DNA of 32,905 bases from Limisphaerales bacterium (GCA_014382585.1 JACNJL010000024.1:1-32905); one strand, 5' to 3'. Shown: positions 8,451 through 32,905, counted from the stretch's first letter. The notes: generated by a model not told the origin, from the sequence alone. A program made the numbers and translations.

Positions 8451-9602
8451 TTATCCCGCCGGGGGCGGTTGAGCCCCGCCCGCGGCAAGTTGTTCAGCTT
8501 GCAACGCGGCCTGCTGTTCATCCCATTCCTTGAGCCGCAACATCATGCCGGTATAATCTTGAGCTTTGTTGACGCAATCTTCACGGGAGACAACGCCTTT
8601 TCCATAATAACCGAACAACCCGTCATCCAATGTGACCATTCCGTATTTCTGGCCGGTTTGTTGGTCGGACGGAATCCGGAATGTTTTATTATCGCGGATA
8701 AGCGCCGAGATGGAGGGGGTCATCACCATGATATCGTGAATGGCCACGCGCCCTTTGGGGATCCGTTTGCAAAGAATTTGAGAAATCACGCACGCCAACA
8801 CGGTGGAAAGCTGAATGCGAATGGTCTCCTGCTGTTGCATCGGAAAGGCGTTTACAATTCGATCTACCGTTTTGGCCGCGCCGGTGGTGTGAAGAGTGCC
8901 GAATACCAAGTGGCCGGTCTCGGCAGCGGACACCGCCATCTCAATAGTTTCCAAATCGCGAAGCTCGCCCACCAGAATCACTTCCGGATCCTGCCGCAAG
9001 GCACGCCGGAGTGCCTCGGCAAAGCTTGGCACATCCACATGTACTTCACGCTGGGTGGTCACCGCTTTTTTGTGGGGATGGTAAAACTCAATGGGATCCT
9101 CAATCGTGATCATATGGCACTCATCATCCGTTTCGTTGATGATGTTCAACATCGAAGCGAGTGTGGTGGATTTGCCGGAACCAGTGGGGCCGGTGACTAG
9201 AATCATGCCACGCGGAGTAGCGAGCAGTTTATCAACCAAGCCTTGGTCGAGGCCGATTTGATCGATGGTGAGTAGATCGTTGGGAATCTGCCGGAGCACC
9301 AGCGCCATATTGCCGCGCTCTTTAAAGGAACTGACTCGAAAGCGCGCTTTGGTGCCGAAGGCGAACCCAAAGTCCGCGCCGCCTTGAGTTCGGATTTGCT
9401 GGATCTGATCATCTGAAGCAATCGACTTCACCAGATACTCAACATCTTCCGGCTCGCAATCAGGACCTTCTACGCGCTTTAGCACCCCACTATCGCGATA
9501 GCATGGCGGGATACCTACGCGCACATGCAAATCAGCCGAGCCGCTGTCCACCATAAGCTTCAGCAAATCGGGCATCCGGTAAATAGGTTCTTTTTCAGGC
9601 AT
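8451..9602 (-). CDS. pilT: Type IV pilus retraction ATPase PilT
   Basis: At 383 residues this matches PilT in length and motifs: Walker A GPTGSGKSTTLASML starting at residue 138, Walker B RQDPEVILVGELRD, His box AETGHLVFGTLHTTGA, and the C-terminal ALIRDNKTFRI that corresponds to the AIRNLIRE retraction motif. The N-terminal PAS-like domain (residues ~1-110) includes SGSADLHVRVGIPP, the usual SDLHL region. There is no zinc tetracysteine module, which separates PilT from PilB. It starts 2 bases after the first pilB stop. Presence of PilT argues that the system is a retractable type IV pilus rather than only a secretion pseudopilus. The extreme C-terminus is an Ala/Gln/Pro-rich tail. Confidence 0.94.
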   Translation of the reverse strand: MPEKEPIYRMPDLLKLMVDSGSADLHVRVGIPPCYRDSGVLKRVEGPDCEPEDVEYLVKSIASDDQIQQIRTQGGADFGFAFGTKARFRVSSFKERGNMALVLRQIPNDLLTIDQIGLDQGLVDKLLATPRGMILVTGPTGSGKSTTLASMLNIINETDDECHMITIEDPIEFYHPHKKAVTTQREVHVDVPSFAEALRRALRQDPEVILVGELRDLETIEMAVSAAETGHLVFGTLHTTGAAKTVDRIVNAFPMQQQETIRIQLSTVLACVISQILCKRIPKGRVAIHDIMVMTPSISALIRDNKTFRIPSDQQTGQKYGMVTLDDGLFGYYGKGVVSREDCVNKAQDYTGMMLRLKEWDEQQAALQAEQLAAGGAQPPPAG

Positions 9603-27455: not shown

Positions 27456-27770
27456 AAAAAAGGCTTGAGGGAAAAAATAAATGGTACGCCCTGAGGGAAT
27501 CGAACCCCCAACCTCCTGATCCGCAATCAGTTTCGATTGCTCGTCCGGCGGCGTATTGACTTTTTGAATTTGCTGGGGAATTGCGTGGTTTGGCCTGTTT
27601 TTTAGGGCTGGTTTCACGGTCTTCCTTTTTACTCGCTGGGGACAGTCTAACCCCTTCTATGAATAATGCGAGGTAATAAAGTCGGGCTTAATGTCGGGGT
27701 GGGGTTGGTGCGCGCGGGTTTGGTCGCTACCGCCGCGTGACGGCGCGGCGGCGGAGGTCGAGGCGTTGGC
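27456..27770. other. Intergenic left border of the island
   Basis: Apart from the tRNA-Arg fragment at its left and the stop-side end of a truncated small gene (from 27727), this stretch shows no gene. An A-rich run at 27457-27479 follows the preceding plus-strand gene. The part near 27725-27770 is a GC-rich run of CCGCCG/CGGCGG units, which would form hairpins. Confidence 0.5.
27482..27530 (-). pseudogene. tRNA-Arg 3' fragment (left attachment-like site)
   Basis: On the minus strand the segment has an anticodon loop TTGCGGA (anticodon GCG), a T arm GGGGG-TTCGATT-CCCTC and the acceptor 3' strand ending ACCA. The D arm and a proper 5' acceptor strand are missing. The first anticodon-stem pair is lost (A opposite G). 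Upstream TACGCC could pair with GGCGTA of the acceptor end, but no GG-containing D loop exists, so I treat it as a fragment rather than a working tRNA. Confidence 0.65.
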
Positions 27771-27987
27771 TGCGGCGGGCGGCGGAGAGGCGAGTAAAGG
27801 CGCGGACTTGTACGTTGCTGGCGAATTGGCCACTGACGCGGCGGCCGTCGATGGTGGATCCTGCGGCGAACTGTGAGGTGGTGCCGTTGCCGGCGGGCGG
27901 GTTGATGCCGGTGATGCGATACACTGCACCCTCAACCGGCGGCGAGGAGAGCAGCAGCAGCGCGATCATAAGGCGAACCAAGGACAT
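27727..27987 (-). CDS. Small secreted protein, copy 1, C-terminus replaced
   Basis: Starting at the ATG ending at 27987 (AAGGG a few bases before it), this 86-residue protein has a signal peptide (MSLVRLMIALLLLSS, cleavage near VEGA) and a mature part beginning VYRITGINPPAGNGTTS. It is identical to the copy at 29835-30134 up to ...RLSAARR, then diverges into a basic tail (SQRLDLRRRAVTRR), because the repeat R1 begins at 27771 inside the gene. So this copy lacks the family's C-terminal helix (TEESKHFIQALLHRL). It is probably a remnant formed when the cassette was duplicated or inserted. Function unknown. Confidence 0.5.
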   Translation of the reverse strand: MSLVRLMIALLLLSSPPVEGAVYRITGINPPAGNGTTSQFAAGSTIDGRRVSGQFASNVQVRAFTRLSAARRSQRLDLRRRAVTRR

Positions 27988-28152
27988 GCAATCCCTTGTA
28001 CCACATTCCGTAAACTTCACAAATTGTTTTTTGATTCCGGCCCTCTCACTGTTTTAGTTAGTAGATTAATATGGATGCGGACTAGCTGCTGATAAAATGG
28101 GCATTGGCGTAAACCTCTACTTGTGGCTTTTTTGAAACTTTTTAGTGAGTTT

Positions 28153-28231
28153 GGGTGTGGGCCTTGGGGTGGGCGTTGAACGTTTTTTTTGGGGCTTGGG
28201 GGTTGTTTTTGTGGGGGTTTTGGGTTTGGGG
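28153..28231 (+). other. Two G-quadruplex-type motifs, copy a
   Basis: Within 21 bases (28153-28173) there are four G-runs: GGG-TGT-GGG-CCTT-GGGG-T-GGG. A second set follows at 28191-28231: GGGG, GGGGG, GGGGG, GGG, GGGG with T-rich spacers. Both lie on the strand that codes for the payload, about 105-183 bases before its ATG. An identical pair is in the second R1 copy. Confidence 0.7.
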
Positions 28232-28240
28232 TGAAAATAG

Positions 28241-28335
28241 TTGAAAATAAATGAAAGATTTTACCTCCGTTTCGCGAATATATAGTAGAGGGGCACGTTG
28301 CCCTTTGTTAACCTGAACTCAGAAAGATACGAACT
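28241..28335 (+). promoter_or_regulatory. Presumed promoter and leader of payload cassette 1
   Basis: The stretch between the G-rich tract and the ATG is AT-rich at first (TTGAAA at 28241, TATATAGT near 28279-28286) and fully conserved in both cassettes. The spacing does not fit a standard sigma-70 pair, so exact elements are uncertain. AGAAAGATACGAACT precedes the ATG with no strong Shine-Dalgarno site. Conservation next to unrelated payloads is the main argument for a promoter role. Confidence 0.4.
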
Positions 28336-28989
28336 ATGAAGAAAACATTTCTAACACTGGTGGCCTTGGTTGGCCTGACTTGGAATGTGAATGCGCAGGA
28401 GATGCCGCCTGTACCAAAGAATAACCTTGCGGGAGCACACGAAAGCTTCAACTATTTGACAGGCATTTTTGCTGATAATCCCGATGTGCTCGTGGGTGAC
28501 ACGATTAAGTTTAAGGTTCACCCAATCCCAGAAGATATATATGGGCAACCCACCCCAACACCTCCATATCCTGCCGCTGATATTGGTGCAGCAGTCGCAA
28601 ATCCTTGGACAATTACCATAGGAAAACAAAATGATGTTTTTGATAGCTATCAAATTACGATTGTTAAGCCTGGTAATGCTATTTTTGCGAATTTCATTTC
28701 CTTCGAGTATATGTGGGTTATTGAGACGGTTGAGGTAGTCGGAGGTCAGGTAACGCGAAACGTTATCGTGGAGGATACATTGTATTTCGTGAACGCCCTT
28801 GAAGGCGCTGCATTGCCCTTTGGTGACGACCTGAACTTTTTCAAGCATGCGATACCGGGTAATTTACCAGCTAATCGATTCCAAATTTGGGGTGATTTGG
28901 ACTTTAATGATCAATTTGCACTTATCCTGTTGGATAGCTATATTGAATTTTACGCTATTGAAGGCGCCTATAATGTTGCCAATGACTAA
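28336..28989 (+). CDS. Payload cassette 1, first gene: secreted protein of unknown function
   Basis: The 217-residue product has a signal peptide (MKKTFLTLVALVGLTWN... cleavage after NAQ, residue 21) that is nearly identical to that of the gene at 30483, while the mature part is unrelated to it. The mature protein (about 196 residues) is acidic, low in Lys/Arg, and appears beta-rich (DTIKFKVHPIPEDIYG, SYQITIVKPGN, FALILLDSYIEFYAIEG). No domain, Cys pair or membrane helix is recognised. Base composition is more AT-rich than the chromosomal genes to the left. A second secreted protein gene follows after 12 bases, so the two form a unit. A role in antagonism, adhesion or signalling is possible, but nothing in the sequence decides. 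Confidence 0.75.
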   Translation: MKKTFLTLVALVGLTWNVNAQEMPPVPKNNLAGAHESFNYLTGIFADNPDVLVGDTIKFKVHPIPEDIYGQPTPTPPYPAADIGAAVANPWTITIGKQNDVFDSYQITIVKPGNAIFANFISFEYMWVIETVEVVGGQVTRNVIVEDTLYFVNALEGAALPFGDDLNFFKHAIPGNLPANRFQIWGDLDFNDQFALILLDSYIEFYAIEGAYNVAND

Positions 28990-29001
28990 GAAAGAAAACT
29001 T

Positions 29002-29775
29002 ATGAAACAACAAATGTTACCACGAGTAATCATATCAAGCCTTCTGTTGGCTGTATGCTTAACTCCAGCCCAATCCTTTGGAGCCGGTGGCCCAAGGCCA
29101 AGTTCAGTGCCGCGAGATTTAGTGATCATCGTGACACCTGATGATACACTTGATCGCTTCTATCAAGACCACGAGCCGCCCGTTGAAATATGGAAACATG
29201 TTGACGCCTACACGTTCCTTGGAATGCGGACTCATCCGAATGTTCGGAGTCTTCAGGATGAAGCCTTGCGCAAGGCCCATCCCGATAAACGAGAACCATC
29301 CAGGGCTGATCAGTTAATCAACAAGCTCGAAGGCAAAGTGAATAAACCGAACAAGTACCTGCCGCAGGGTGTCCGGTTTGTCTTCAAGCCGCCGCGTCGA
29401 ATTGACGTTATTGCCGACAAAATCCCCCTGAAAATGGTGCAACACGAGCAATTCAAAAATATGTCCCATTGGCTTGCTTTTCCAGCTGGTAAGGGTGTGT
29501 TGGTAGATGGCTTGCTGCAAGCGTTAAAAGAACGAATGGATGAATTCAAAAAATTGGGCATCGAACGCGAACCAGTTCCGCATCACGCTCTCAATCCTAA
29601 AGCTACGGAGAATGCAATAAAAAGAAGTAATGCATTGCGGCGGCAGGCATATGACAGGCCAATCGCTACATTGGAACGATGGCTAAAGGACATGGATCCA
29701 AAAGACCCTCAACATAAAGTTTTCACTCAAAGGCTTGAAAAATTCAAAAAAGCAAGGGCTCGGTTTGAGGATTAG
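29002..29775 (+). CDS. Payload cassette 1, second gene: secreted basic protein of unknown function
   Basis: The 257-residue product begins with a signal peptide (residues 1-27: basic start, LLLAVCLTPAQSFGA, cleavage near GA). The Cys there is not in a proper lipobox because Val precedes it. The mature part is basic and largely helical: segments such as DELRKAHPDK-like charged helices (here EALRKAHPDKREPSRADQL), LLQALKERMDEFKKLGIERE and a closing QRLEKFKKARARFED. It includes THPNVRSLQDEALRKAH, superficially J-domain-like (a 'HPD' at KAHPDK), but the remaining J-domain pattern is not convincing. It starts 12 bases after the first payload gene and ends shortly before the conserved terminator. 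Unknown family. Confidence 0.72.
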   Translation: MKQQMLPRVIISSLLLAVCLTPAQSFGAGGPRPSSVPRDLVIIVTPDDTLDRFYQDHEPPVEIWKHVDAYTFLGMRTHPNVRSLQDEALRKAHPDKREPSRADQLINKLEGKVNKPNKYLPQGVRFVFKPPRRIDVIADKIPLKMVQHEQFKNMSHWLAFPAGKGVLVDGLLQALKERMDEFKKLGIEREPVPHHALNPKATENAIKRSNALRRQAYDRPIATLERWLKDMDPKDPQHKVFTQRLEKFKKARARFED

Positions 29776-29800
29776 TTGACGATCATTTGATTTCTGCCAC

Positions 29801-29928
29801 TCACCGCCCCGTTTTCACGGGGCGTTTTTTGTGCCTATTGGCCTTCGGATTCTAGGCGGGCTTCTAGTTCGTTGAGGCGGTGGAGGAGGGCTTGGATGAA
29901 GTGTTTGGATTCTTCGGTGCGGCGGGCG
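29801..29928. repeat. Cassette end module R2, copy a
   Basis: This ~128-base segment recurs at 31820-31947 with scattered substitutions and two one-base indels (hairpin loop and T-run). It holds the terminator hairpin for the plus-strand payload and the C-terminal codons of the small minus-strand gene (ARRTEESKHFIQALLHRL and on). It overlaps the start of R1 copy b by 11 bases, so R2 and R1 together make the full small gene. Confidence 0.85.
29805..29830 (+). terminator. Rho-independent terminator of cassette 1
   Basis: An 8-base-pair perfect stem CGCCCCGT / ACGGGGCG with loop TTTC is followed by six T. It lies 29 bases after the stop at 29775 and is conserved behind the second payload as well. 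Confidence 0.9.
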
Positions 29929-30134
29929 GCGGAGAGGCGAGTAAAGGCGCGGACTTGTACGTTGCTGGCGAATTGGCCACTGACGCGGCGGCCGTCGATG
30001 GTGGATCCTGCGGCGAACTGTGAGGTGGTGCCGTTGCCGGCGGGCGGGTTGATGCCGGTGATGCGATACACTGCACCCTCAACCGGCGGCGAGGAGAGCA
30101 GCAGCAGCGCGATCATAAGGCGAACCAAGGACAT
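29835..30134 (-). CDS. Small secreted protein, intact copy 2
   Basis: The start is the ATG ending at 30134, with AAGGG shortly upstream; the product has 99 residues. It has a signal peptide (LVRLMIALLLLSS, cleavage near VEGA), a short region VYRITGINPPAGNGTTSQF and GRRVSGQFASNVQVRAFTRL, then a C-terminal helix TEESKHFIQALLHRLNELEA that looks like a short coiled coil, similar in style to C-termini of tail-fibre chaperone or trimerising segments (weak resemblance). Its codons span the junction of modules R2 and R1. It is convergent with payload 1 and divergent from payload 2. As the only complete copy it may be the cassette's own conserved function. Family unknown. Confidence 0.6.
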   Translation of the reverse strand: MSLVRLMIALLLLSSPPVEGAVYRITGINPPAGNGTTSQFAAGSTIDGRRVSGQFASNVQVRAFTRLSAARRTEESKHFIQALLHRLNELEARLESEGQ

Positions 30135-30547
30135 GCAATCCCTTGTACCACATTCCGTAAACTTCACAAATTGTTTTTTGATTCCGGCCCTCTCACTGTT
30201 TTAGTTAGTAGATTAATATGGATGCGGACTAGCTGCTGATAAAATGGGCATTGGCGTAAACCTCTACTTGTGGCTTTTTTGAAACTTTTTAGTGAGTTTG
30301 GGTGTGGGCCTTGGGGTGGGCGTTGAACGTTTTTTTTGGGGCTTGGGGGTTGTTTTTGTGGGGGTTTTGGGTTTGGGGTGAAAATAGTTGAAAATAAATG
30401 AAAGATTTTACCTCCGTTTCGCGAATATATAGTAGAGGGGCACGTTGCCCTTTGTTAACCTGAACTCAGAAAGATACGAACTATGAAGAAAACACTACTA
30501 ACACTGGTGGCCTTGGTTGGCCTGACTTGGAATGTGAATGCGCAGGA
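29918..30547. repeat. Cassette front module R1, copy b (630 bp)
   Basis: Second copy of R1, matching 27771-28400 without indels. It joins directly to R2 copy a on its left and to the mature-coding part of a different payload gene on its right. Near identity over 630 bases points to a recent duplication or gene conversion. Confidence 0.95.
30300..30378 (+). other. Two G-quadruplex-type motifs, copy b
   Basis: Exact repeat of the G-run pattern at 28153-28231, offset by 2147 bases: four G-runs at 30300-30320 and five at 30338-30378, upstream of the second payload. Confidence 0.7.
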
Positions 30548-31241
30548 TGCGCCCCCGGAGCCTGATAGGAGTTTGCCTCCAATTGAAAGCGATCCCACGG
30601 ATTACGAGATTATTGAAATGCTTGTTCCGCCAGGAGAAATGTTTGTGAATTGTGGTGAAGGCGGTTTTGAATTTAATTTCAACCAAAGTGCCCGTTTTAC
30701 TGGGCTGGTTCGATCACTGGCTGACATGCCATTCCTCACACTTCACGGCATGTTGATGTTTTCTGAAAAAGACAGCATCACATTCACGTACGTTCCGTCT
30801 AGACTGAAGAATGGCGTAAGAATGCCTGACCTTGATGATCAAGTGTCTATCATTGTTTCCAGAGATTTGGAAAAGCCATGTGGATTGGATTTTCAGTTGA
30901 AACACCAAAAACAAAACAAATTTCCATTTGAATTGGAGCTTGCATATCGCTTGAGTACGCTCATTAAAAAACGTGATCCTATAAACGGGGACGAACTGCA
31001 TCTTGCACTCCCTAAAAAAAAGCGATCCTTGGAATGGAATGACCCGTCTCGAATTACGCCAAACAATGAAATGAACCATGAAAAATGGGTTTCTGATACA
31101 CCGGCCATGGATCCAAAGTTGAATTATAATACAAATGAAATTGTCAATCATAAGTTTAACGATGGGAAAATTGTTTACACGATCATTATCACCACTTACC
31201 TAAGATCACTGAAATGGAATTCTGACCCCAAGGCCAAATAG
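30483..31241 (+). CDS. Payload cassette 2, first gene: secreted protein of unknown function
   Basis: The 252-residue product shares its first 21 residues (signal peptide MKKTLLTLVALVGLTWN..., two base changes, one Phe-to-Leu change) with the gene at 28336, and nothing after the cleavage site. The mature protein starts DAPPEPDRSLPPIES, a proline/acid-rich linker, followed by a probable beta-rich part (FEFNFNQSARFTGLV, DSITFTYVPSRL, DQVSIIVSRDLEKPCG) and a Lys/Asn-rich C-terminal third (KIVYTIIITTYLRSLKWN). It has two Cys in the mature part (near CGEGG and PCGLD) that could form a disulfide. No known domain recognised. AT-rich relative to the flanking genome. The partner gene starts 2 bases after its stop. 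Confidence 0.75.
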   Translation: MKKTLLTLVALVGLTWNVNAQDAPPEPDRSLPPIESDPTDYEIIEMLVPPGEMFVNCGEGGFEFNFNQSARFTGLVRSLADMPFLTLHGMLMFSEKDSITFTYVPSRLKNGVRMPDLDDQVSIIVSRDLEKPCGLDFQLKHQKQNKFPFELELAYRLSTLIKKRDPINGDELHLALPKKKRSLEWNDPSRITPNNEMNHEKWVSDTPAMDPKLNYNTNEIVNHKFNDGKIVYTIIITTYLRSLKWNSDPKAK

Positions 31242-31243
31242 AA

Positions 31244-31801
31244 ATGTTTGCTCACATCATATCAATTGCCCTCACTCTTGCCGGCACCTTCAATACACTA
31301 GAAGAAAGGGAAATGGCGATGCAAAGCGCCAAAGCCACTATTCTTTTTGATATTGAATGTCGGAAGATAGTCGATCATTTTTCGCTATTTGACAACGTCC
31401 AATACCCATCAATAACTGATGCTATGTGGACACAAGATGATTGGACGATCTTGCACACTCATAATGAGCTCTTGGACACTTTTCAGCATATTTTCAAAGA
31501 AGACCCAGCCCTTCATGATCATATATTGCTGAAAATTGACCGATGTTTTCGTCAAGCTTTTTTGATCAAAGAACATCGTAATCGGCAACGAGCTTTAGCA
31601 GGCAAAAAACCGCTAGATTCATTTGCAAATGAGAATTCAATTAGGATGAAAAGGCGTTTGAGGCCAATTGGGGGATATGTTATTGGGTACAGGCCTGACC
31701 CATTTATAGAGTCCCTGTTCAAGATTGAGTTGATTGATATAATGCTAAAGCGTGGAGTAATAAATGATCCCAAGGACATTAAAGTGATAATTGTGCCCTA
31801 G
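31244..31801 (+). CDS. Payload cassette 2, second gene: protein of unknown function
   Basis: The 185-residue product starts with a short hydrophobic segment (MFAHIISIALTLAGTF) that may be a signal peptide or membrane anchor, weaker than in the other payload proteins. The rest is mostly helical and charged, with REMAMQSAKATILFDIECRK, HNELLDTFQHIFKEDPALHD and RCFRQAFLIKEHRNRQRALAG, and ends in KDIKVIIVP. I recognise no family. It lies 2 bases after the first payload gene and 22 bases before the conserved terminator, so the pair forms a closed two-gene payload. It is not similar to the second gene of cassette 1. Confidence 0.68.
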   Translation: MFAHIISIALTLAGTFNTLEEREMAMQSAKATILFDIECRKIVDHFSLFDNVQYPSITDAMWTQDDWTILHTHNELLDTFQHIFKEDPALHDHILLKIDRCFRQAFLIKEHRNRQRALAGKKPLDSFANENSIRMKRRLRPIGGYVIGYRPDPFIESLFKIELIDIMLKRGVINDPKDIKVIIVP

Positions 31802-31819
31802 GTATATTGCCCATTGCAT

Positions 31820-31947
31820 TCACCGCCCCGTTTTACGGGGCGTTTTTTTGTGCCTACTGCCCTTCGGCCTCGAGGCGGGCTTCGAGTTGGTTGAGGCGGC
31901 GGAGGAGGGCTTGGATGAAGTGTTTGGATTCTTCGGTGCGGCGGGCG
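31820..31947. repeat. Cassette end module R2, copy b
   Basis: Second copy of the end module, more diverged than the R1 copies (several substitutions). After 31947 the sequence leaves the R1 pattern, so this is the right end of the array. Confidence 0.85.
31824..31849 (+). terminator. Rho-independent terminator of cassette 2
   Basis: Stem CGCCCCGT / ACGGGGCG with loop TTT and seven T follows the stop at 31801. Same stem as the terminator of cassette 1. Confidence 0.9.
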
Positions 31948-32111
31948 TGGTGGGAGGCGTTGATGGCGTCCTGGAAGCCGAGGGGGTGGGCTTGGATGAT
32001 TTCTTGGGCGGAGTTATATTTGATACTCAGGCAGCCGGCCGCGTGGCTCAGAGTAATCAAAAGTATCAGCGCGCGGCCTAAGCCAAAAGAAGCCCCACAA
32101 AAAAGAGTCAT
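31854..32111 (-). CDS. Small exported protein, third member with a different N-terminus
   Basis: Starting at the ATG ending at 32111, the 85-residue product has a signal sequence (LGRALILLITLSHAAGC) with a possible lipobox AAGC, then LSIKYNSAQEIIQAHPLGF, which is unrelated to the other copies. Its last 30 residues (ARRTEESKHFIQALLRRLNQ and on) match the intact copy at 29835-30134. The ATG lies only 3 bases after the CCA end of the tRNA-Arg fragment, so the attachment-like site forms its upstream region. The swap point between N-terminal types is the right edge of module R2. Function unknown; membrane or periplasmic location is likely. Confidence 0.55.
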   Translation of the reverse strand: MTLFCGASFGLGRALILLITLSHAAGCLSIKYNSAQEIIQAHPLGFQDAINASHHARRTEESKHFIQALLRRLNQLEARLEAEGQ

Positions 32112-32114
32112 AAA

Positions 32115-32164
32115 TGGTACGCCCTGAGGGAATCGAACCCCCAACCTCCTGATCCGTAATCAGG
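32115..32164 (-). pseudogene. tRNA-Arg 3' fragment (right attachment-like site)
   Basis: The minus strand reads an intact 5-pair anticodon stem CCTGA/TCAGG with loop TTACGGA (anticodon ACG, the common bacterial tRNA-Arg), a T arm identical to the left copy, and an acceptor 3' strand ending ACCA. Upstream (to the right) there is no D arm or 5' acceptor, so the gene is truncated at the anticodon stem. Confidence 0.7.
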
Positions 32165-32311
32165 TTAAAGGGTGATGCTGTGCAGCCATATAAAGTCGTG
32201 TTTCCCCTATTTTATAGGGTTGTTATTCACATTTTGCGCGCCCAATTGTCTTGGTTAGTTATGGGGAGTCCTGTTTGAAGTGGTAAACAGGATGGTAAAC
32301 GCGCCAACCCC

Positions 32312-32905
32312 TCATTTCCCGTACGCCTTACTACCCATTCCGATGACGTCCTCGTAAACGCTCATCAATGCCTTGTCTCCTGCCTCTTTGGCTTGCAACC
32401 AACGTTCGTGGTTCGGGCTGTAAACACCGCGATGCCAATGCCCGAGGGATTGGAGGCGCTGGACTTGCTCCGTTGTTCTCAAATCCTTCGGCAGTGCTCG
32501 GAGGCGATAGTATTCGGCGAGTAAACCGCGCGCTTGCCCGGGCAGTTGCATCCGGTCAAGAGCCCGTTCGCCAGTACGGGCATTGATCTGCCCCCGCTGT
32601 TGCTCGCGGAAACTCCGTGGCCCCCTCCTCGCGTAATTCCTTGACCGCCTTGCGCGCCTCCCCTTCATTCAACGTCGGAGCCTGCGCCCGCAACAAATCC
32701 GCAAGCATTCCCTCCTGCGCCGGGTCCGCAATTAATTCAGGTAATTCACTCAGGATACTCTCCGGCGCACTTTGCAGCGCCACCTGAGTGAGCTGCTCCA
32801 CATCCAGTGTTTCGAGGCGCAAACTATGCTGCTGTTCCCAGCCGCAATACACCTTGAGCAGCTGCAGGAGGTGGTTCGGGCCATCCGCAAGGCCGGTGGA
32901 AAGAT
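32312..32905 (-). pseudogene. Frame-broken gene of unknown function entering from the right edge
   Basis: A minus-strand frame enters at the window end (LSTGLADGPNHLLQLLKVY...) and reads through VEQLTQVALQSAPESILSEL to KAVKELREEG. It then loses sense and stops near 32556. The neighbouring frame continues plausibly from PRSFREQQRGQINARTGERA to YEDVIGMGSKAYGK, stopping at 32312. The likely switch is at the G5 run at 32621-32625 (C5 on the plus strand) or the one at 32591-32595. So this is one gene of at least 190 residues with a one-base frameshift, either a real mutation or an assembly error. It is helical and charged, perhaps from a phage or integrative element, but I do not recognise the family. 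Confidence 0.55.

Follow-up and report, generated by a model that had tools for sequence, protein, structure and literature searches.

A candidate family of dispersed secretion cassettes with a constant leader and variable payloads in a Limisphaerales bacterium

In a stretch of 32,905 nucleotides from a Limisphaerales bacterium (GCA_014382585.1, JACNJL010000024.1:1-32905), referred to here as the window, positions 27771 to 31947 contain an array of two cassettes, each with a promoter and 5′ leader, a segment encoding a signal peptide, and two genes. The source genome (G000) is a draft assembly of 70 contigs, in which the window is contig C24, and the order of the array is read from that assembly. 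An earlier, sequence-only reading of this DNA had described two repeats, R1 and R2, framing the payloads, and our repeat comparison confirmed both in place. These repeats, and the open reading frame (ORF) X that overlaps them, are as follows:

27771..28400, + strand: repeat R1 copy 1, X head, spacer, cassette leader and signal-peptide segment (repeat comparison)
29918..30547, + strand: repeat R1 copy 2 (repeat comparison)
29798..29928, + strand: repeat R2 copy 1, terminator CCGCCCCGTTTTCACGGGGCGTTTTTT and X tail (repeat comparison)
31817..31947, + strand: repeat R2 copy 2, terminator and X tail (repeat comparison)
27727..28020, - strand: ORF X1, truncated copy, X head with an unrelated tail (ORF list, X search)
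29835..30167, - strand: ORF X2, complete, 110 amino acids, convergent with cassette 1 (ORF list, X search)
31854..32144, - strand: ORF X3, X tail with a different head, directed away from the tRNA remnant (ORF list, X search)

The two R1 copies are identical at 628 of 630 positions (99.7%), non-coding parts included, the only two mismatches both being in signal-peptide codon 5, and identity ends one to two bases past the Gln21 codon (GCG CAG, then GA..). The R2 copies are about 90% identical (89% ungapped, 92% by BLAST), and R1 and R2 overlap by about 11 bp (29918-29928). The earlier claim that these repeats are constant front and end modules stands for the promoter, the signal peptide and the terminator, but not for their whole length. 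R1 is composite: its left ~360 bp are the head of the minus-strand ORF X plus a spacer, lying outside the leader shared with cassettes elsewhere, and the part found family-wide is the right ~270 bp, i.e., the promoter, 5′ leader and 63-bp signal-peptide segment. R2 consists of the terminator and the tail of X, and its family-wide part is the terminator alone. Of X, the left end of the array has the head alone, the middle a complete copy, and the right end the tail joined to another head; the remaining R1 and R2 sequence is a local duplication of this convergent ORF. Inverted repeats in the array region of the window are weak ones only.

The leaders and genes of the two window cassettes, the second of which we label W2, are listed below; related cassettes are named after contigs C18, C26 and C60 of the source genome and contig C67 of a sister-species genome, G004:

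28128..28335, + strand: cassette 1 leader, promoter and 5′ untranslated region common to other cassettes, strongest from 28200
28336..28398, + strand: cassette 1 signal-peptide segment MKKTFLTLVALVGLTWNVNAQ, 63 bp, 81-97% identical to other copies
28336..28989, + strand: cassette 1 gene A, 217 amino acids, signal peptide; no relatives detected for the mature part
29002..29775, + strand: cassette 1 gene B, 257 amino acids, N-terminal signal peptide by inspection
30275..30482, + strand: cassette 2 leader, promoter and 5′ untranslated region
30483..31241, + strand: cassette 2 gene A, 252 amino acids, signal peptide at 30483-30545, family A-I (with C60 and G004:C67)
31244..31801, + strand: cassette 2 gene B, 185 amino acids, family B-alpha, 40% identical to C18 gene B

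The mature parts of payload 1 and payload 2 show no significant similarity to one another by BLASTP or HHalign, as the sequence-only reading had proposed for this pair. The G+C content of the payloads is 0.38-0.47, versus 0.54 in the window up to 27.4 kb. For the cassette 1 genes we found no homology to the other payload families, so that they stand alone, and gene B of this cassette has no relative among 292 other genomes of the order. Searches with ten proteins returned nothing convincing in Pfam, NCBIfam or PHROGs, and no toxin or immunity domain. The AlphaFold2 prediction for cassette 2 gene B (B-alpha) is helical, with a predicted local distance difference test score (pLDDT) of 78.6, and has no match in the PDB at E<=0.001; a gene A model built from a 3-sequence alignment reached a pLDDT of 37.5 and was discarded. 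Export was judged by eye from N-terminal sequence, and on this basis the B proteins, too, seem to begin with export signals.

The window pair belongs to a dispersed family. Using R1 as a query, we observed that its right part recurs at C26, C18 and C60, and, with a sequence model of the leader built from an alignment of five copies, that the full leader and signal peptide are present at five places on four contigs of the source genome and at one place in G004 (C67), these being the only two genomes containing them among the relatives searched. G004 matches JAAZZB01, “Verrucomicrobiia bacterium isolate bin84o,” and a GTDB genome scan with the gene A alignment gave, among the matches listed, the sister genome only. 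The tandem array of the sequence-only reading thus exists in the window but is a single case within a family that also occupies C26, C18, C60 and G004:C67, and the repeated leader is accordingly found more than once among relatives.

Each copy also has a sharp boundary between constant and variable sequence. The signal-peptide segment has 70-97% nucleotide identity among six copies, and mature gene A 15-48%; ungapped identity is 0.70-0.97 across the signal peptide but 0.27-0.57 in the 30 bases that follow it, a drop present in 15 of 15 pairs and always at the same point, the signal-peptidase site. The signal ends in NAQ or SAQ, with no lipobox Cys in any of the six copies (6/6). The R2 terminator hairpin recurs 3′ of the C26 and C18 cassettes and, having its own promoter block and hairpin terminator, the cassette looks independently transcribed.

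We gave up the view that this promoter is confined to the cassettes, since a shorter core of its kind also lies 5′ of two other features of the genus, a kinase-like gene and a small-RNA-like unit. The core, CGCGAATATATAGTAGAG, precedes the protein-kinase-like gene in four genus members (L060, i.e., G000:C53, L054, L058 and L059). The small-RNA-like unit is conserved in five genus members (L055:4457-4640, L053:3991-4200, L052 and L056, both on the minus strand, and L057), where ~100 nt follow the same promoter core and close with a GC-rich hairpin and a T run; no Rfam match was found in L052, L053 or L055.

At one orthologous site, the two sister species carry different payloads behind a retained leader, a comparison of the kind the sequence-only reading had called for. 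The G000:C18 and G004:C67 cassettes have the same neighbours, a permease gene on one side and a tRNA-Lys sequence on the other; their promoter and 5′ leader are 86% identical and their signal-peptide segments 95% identical, and from the first codon past the cleavage site identity is at background level and the genes differ. At this site G000 has an A-II gene with an internal stop, together with a B-alpha gene and one further ORF, and G004 has an A-I gene and a distant B. In addition, an element starting at tRNA-Lys in G004 (L183:1154-4979, on G004:C21) encodes a phage-type integrase, helix-turn-helix proteins and a DnaB-like helicase, and a 74-bp copy of the tRNA end, 98.6% identical, abuts the cassette on G004:C67; C21 and C67 are unjoined in the assembly, so that we infer the far end of the integrase element.

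Comparison of the payloads demonstrated that several belong to common families, which limits the earlier claim of unrelated payloads throughout. Apart from that of cassette 1, the mature gene A proteins form two families, A-I (W2, C60 and G004; 24-25% identity) and A-II (C26 and C18; 53%), with a weak local match only between them. B-alpha comprises the second genes of W2 and C18 (40%), with weaker members in G004 and C60 found via a profile built with these two. The combinations differ: W2 is A-I with B-alpha, C18 is A-II with B-alpha, and C26 is A-II with another B. Because B-alpha lies behind A-I in W2 and behind A-II in C18, the first and second genes reassort. The A-II interruptions are at similar positions (L013:7141-7145 in C18, an in-frame TAA; L012:7797-7813 in C26), and homology goes on past them (C18A2 versus C26m), reflecting either decay or a common unusual feature.

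These results bear on two other explanations. Ordinary gene-family expansion, i.e., duplication of an operon whose mature proteins diverge fast under a constrained signal peptide and promoter, with no exchange of payloads, would account for the true distant homologues among the payloads, at the identities given above for A-I, A-II and B-alpha, and for the divergence of the leaders by locus (62-92%), which mostly follows the site. We nevertheless regard it as unlikely, since R1 is near-identical, non-coding sequence included, beside payloads without similarity, since the C18 and G004:C67 signal peptides match at 95% while the mature sequence is at background level, and since the relationships of the first and second genes are discordant. 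The near-identity of R1 (99.7%) beside unrelated payloads instead implies that the latest event in the window, a replacement or a capture, was recent relative to the species split. The second explanation, that the cassettes encode effector-immunity (polymorphic toxin-like) pairs exported via a common leader, had been raised by the sequence-only reading, and the two-gene units, their high diversity, their mobile surroundings and the turnover between close species are all consistent with it. This idea is weakened because the first and second genes reassort, with B-alpha accompanying A-I in one cassette and A-II in another as opposed to a cognate partner, and because both products look exported; together with the lack of a toxin or immunity domain by Pfam, NCBIfam and PHROGs, this makes it improbable.

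The cassettes are located at tRNA genes or at gene 3′ ends, and several of these sites are empty in relatives. The window array sits between two tRNA-Arg 3′ halves, which form a 57-bp repeat, D4, at 96% identity:

27477..27533, - strand: tRNA-Arg 3′ half, left copy, displaced, with an altered anticodon loop; left border of the islet (repeat D4; collinear with the intact tRNA-Arg of G004)
32110..32166, - strand: tRNA-Arg 3′ half, right copy; right border of the islet (repeat D4)

The left flank of the array is collinear with G004 at 95% up to the tRNA-Arg, which is intact in G004; the intact tRNA-Arg of the source genome stands at the start of contig C51. Within 27.5-32.2 kb, between these halves, we recognized no phage gene. 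Cassette sites on contigs with chromosomal genes are tRNA-Arg, tRNA-Lys, gcvP and pcrA. G004 contains no cassette at the window tRNA-Arg, gcvP (C26) or pcrA (C60) positions, and more distant congeners contain none at the gcvP and pcrA positions. On either side of the C26 cassette stands a direct repeat of ~185 bp (L012:6908-7102 and 8575-8766) that comprises the rpoD-gcvP spacer together with the 3′ end of gcvP. This segment is single in genome G005, and the length of the repeat greatly exceeds that of an ordinary target-site duplication. Past the tRNA-Arg half on the right, two overlapping ORFs on the minus strand (window 32312-32903) run off the contig end; they have no Pfam match and are perhaps a second islet.

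With 70 contigs, a C51 edge that falls exactly at the tRNA-Arg repeat, and near-identical 630-bp repeats that are open to misjoining, the array might be no cassette system at all but an assembly artefact, or a simple tandem duplication, in a fragmented draft. We consider this very improbable, as the leader precedes other payloads on three further contigs and also, at a conserved site, in an independent genome, and as two positions differ between the R1 copies.

We think it probable that the array represents two members of a dispersed, moron-like family of secretion cassettes, in which payloads are exchanged under a constant leader. On this reading a cassette is an AT-rich unit in which an unvarying promoter, 5′ leader and 63-bp signal-peptide segment precede the genes for two, at times three, orphan proteins that look exported, with a constant intrinsic terminator closing most copies; its constant front stops at the signal-peptidase site, and the sequence behind it would be exchangeable. 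Integrative elements that insert at tRNA sites and gene 3′ ends may bring in new payloads, which could enter resident cassettes by homologous recombination anchored in the leader at one end and in the terminator or a duplicated tRNA end at the other. The set of exported proteins would then change while the signal for their expression and export stayed one and the same, as at the erp loci of Borrelia. The role of these proteins is likely at the cell surface or outside the cell, in adhesion, in receptor or antigen change, or in antagonism.

Several observations weigh against payload exchange on this model. A differing payload was seen at one orthologous site only, and the C18 and G004 terminators there are similar and not identical, which makes the 3′ exchange boundary less sharp; no terminator was detected for the C60 cassette. 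Both A-II genes, that of C18 and that of C26, carry interruptions, and some cassettes may therefore be decaying and not in use. Contig C24 contains no recombinase, the PF00589 matches of the source genome being on C17, C38 and C23, and no donor molecule was found in the phage, plasmid and viral collections searched. Finally, the calls of export come from inspection by eye.

The sequence-only reading knew of no described system with this layout, yet the erp (ospE/ospF/elp, upstream-homology-box) loci of Borrelia burgdorferi have it: carried on cp32 prophages and mono- or bicistronic, they combine a conserved promoter, operator and leader polypeptide with ORF bodies of many independent origins, with recombination (PMC10016077). 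Comparing the layouts by description, we find that the cassettes likewise join a conserved promoter and leader peptide to mature parts whose origins are independent, and that they share a mono- or bicistronic organization and a link to mobile elements. They differ in that the signal is not of the lipoprotein type, with no Cys at the cleavage site, in that they lie in islets at chromosomal tRNA genes and gene 3′ ends rather than on cp32 prophage plasmids, and in the constant terminator of most copies. By analogy, the cassettes appear to work like erp loci without being members of them. They also resemble phage moron or lysogenic-conversion cassettes in the promoter and terminator of their own seen in the sequence, in atypical G+C content and in adjoining the tRNA attachment site of an integrative element, but do not appear to lie inside an intact prophage; to our knowledge, morons do not in general re-use one leader for different payloads.

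The Vpma and Vsp variable lipoprotein families of Mycoplasma are gene clusters in which a conserved 5′ region and signal peptide precede divergent mature proteins, an arrangement that the cassettes share. Vpma switching is attributed to Xer1-mediated site-specific recombination (PMC5634654). In contrast to Vpma, each cassette has its own leader, and no inverted segments or local recombinase, as expected of a Vpma-type or shufflon system, were seen. Integrons likewise exchange payloads adjoining constant sequence, but the cassette units have their own promoter and mostly their own terminator, are dispersed at tRNA and gene ends, and have no IntI-type integrase on C24. In line with the distinction from integrons and shufflons drawn by the sequence-only reading, neither mechanism gained support, with no integrase on the contig and direct repeats framing the units.

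A second constant module, unrelated to the cassette leader, is present in the lineage. Next to X-like sequence in G005, a promoter-like TTTACA-17-TAGGGT abuts a start codon (L126:3317-3425, i.e., G005:C5:98316-98424; also L159-L173), and the module encodes the lipoprotein signal MKQILLMIAVVALVGCG. At least 133 matches are listed in seven genus genomes (at least 40 in G005), with 30 more in another genus of the family. The module is fused at variable points to FGE-sulfatase-type, PQQ/beta-propeller, Sel1 and SNase proteins, and also to PDZ, thioredoxin-like and oxidoreductase proteins, and tandem arrays are frequent. Its position before unrelated exported proteins, enzymes and lipoproteins among them, suggests that re-use of leaders may be a habit of the lineage. 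We tentatively raise the possibility that this lineage evolves exported proteins by moving DNA modules that carry a promoter and signal peptide, such as the cassette leader and the MKQILLMIAVVALVGCG module; a literature search on mobile promoters found nothing specific. If true, such movement would amount to a bacterial form of exon shuffling that acts on secretion signals.

The cassettes would place an erp-like strategy, i.e., a constant expression and export signal with an exchangeable exported protein, outside the spirochetes, in a lineage of the Verrucomicrobiota. The sister genomes provide a clean natural experiment, in which the site and the leader are the same and the payload is different. 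Leader-anchored turnover of exported proteins may thus be more general than the cases known from pathogens suggest.

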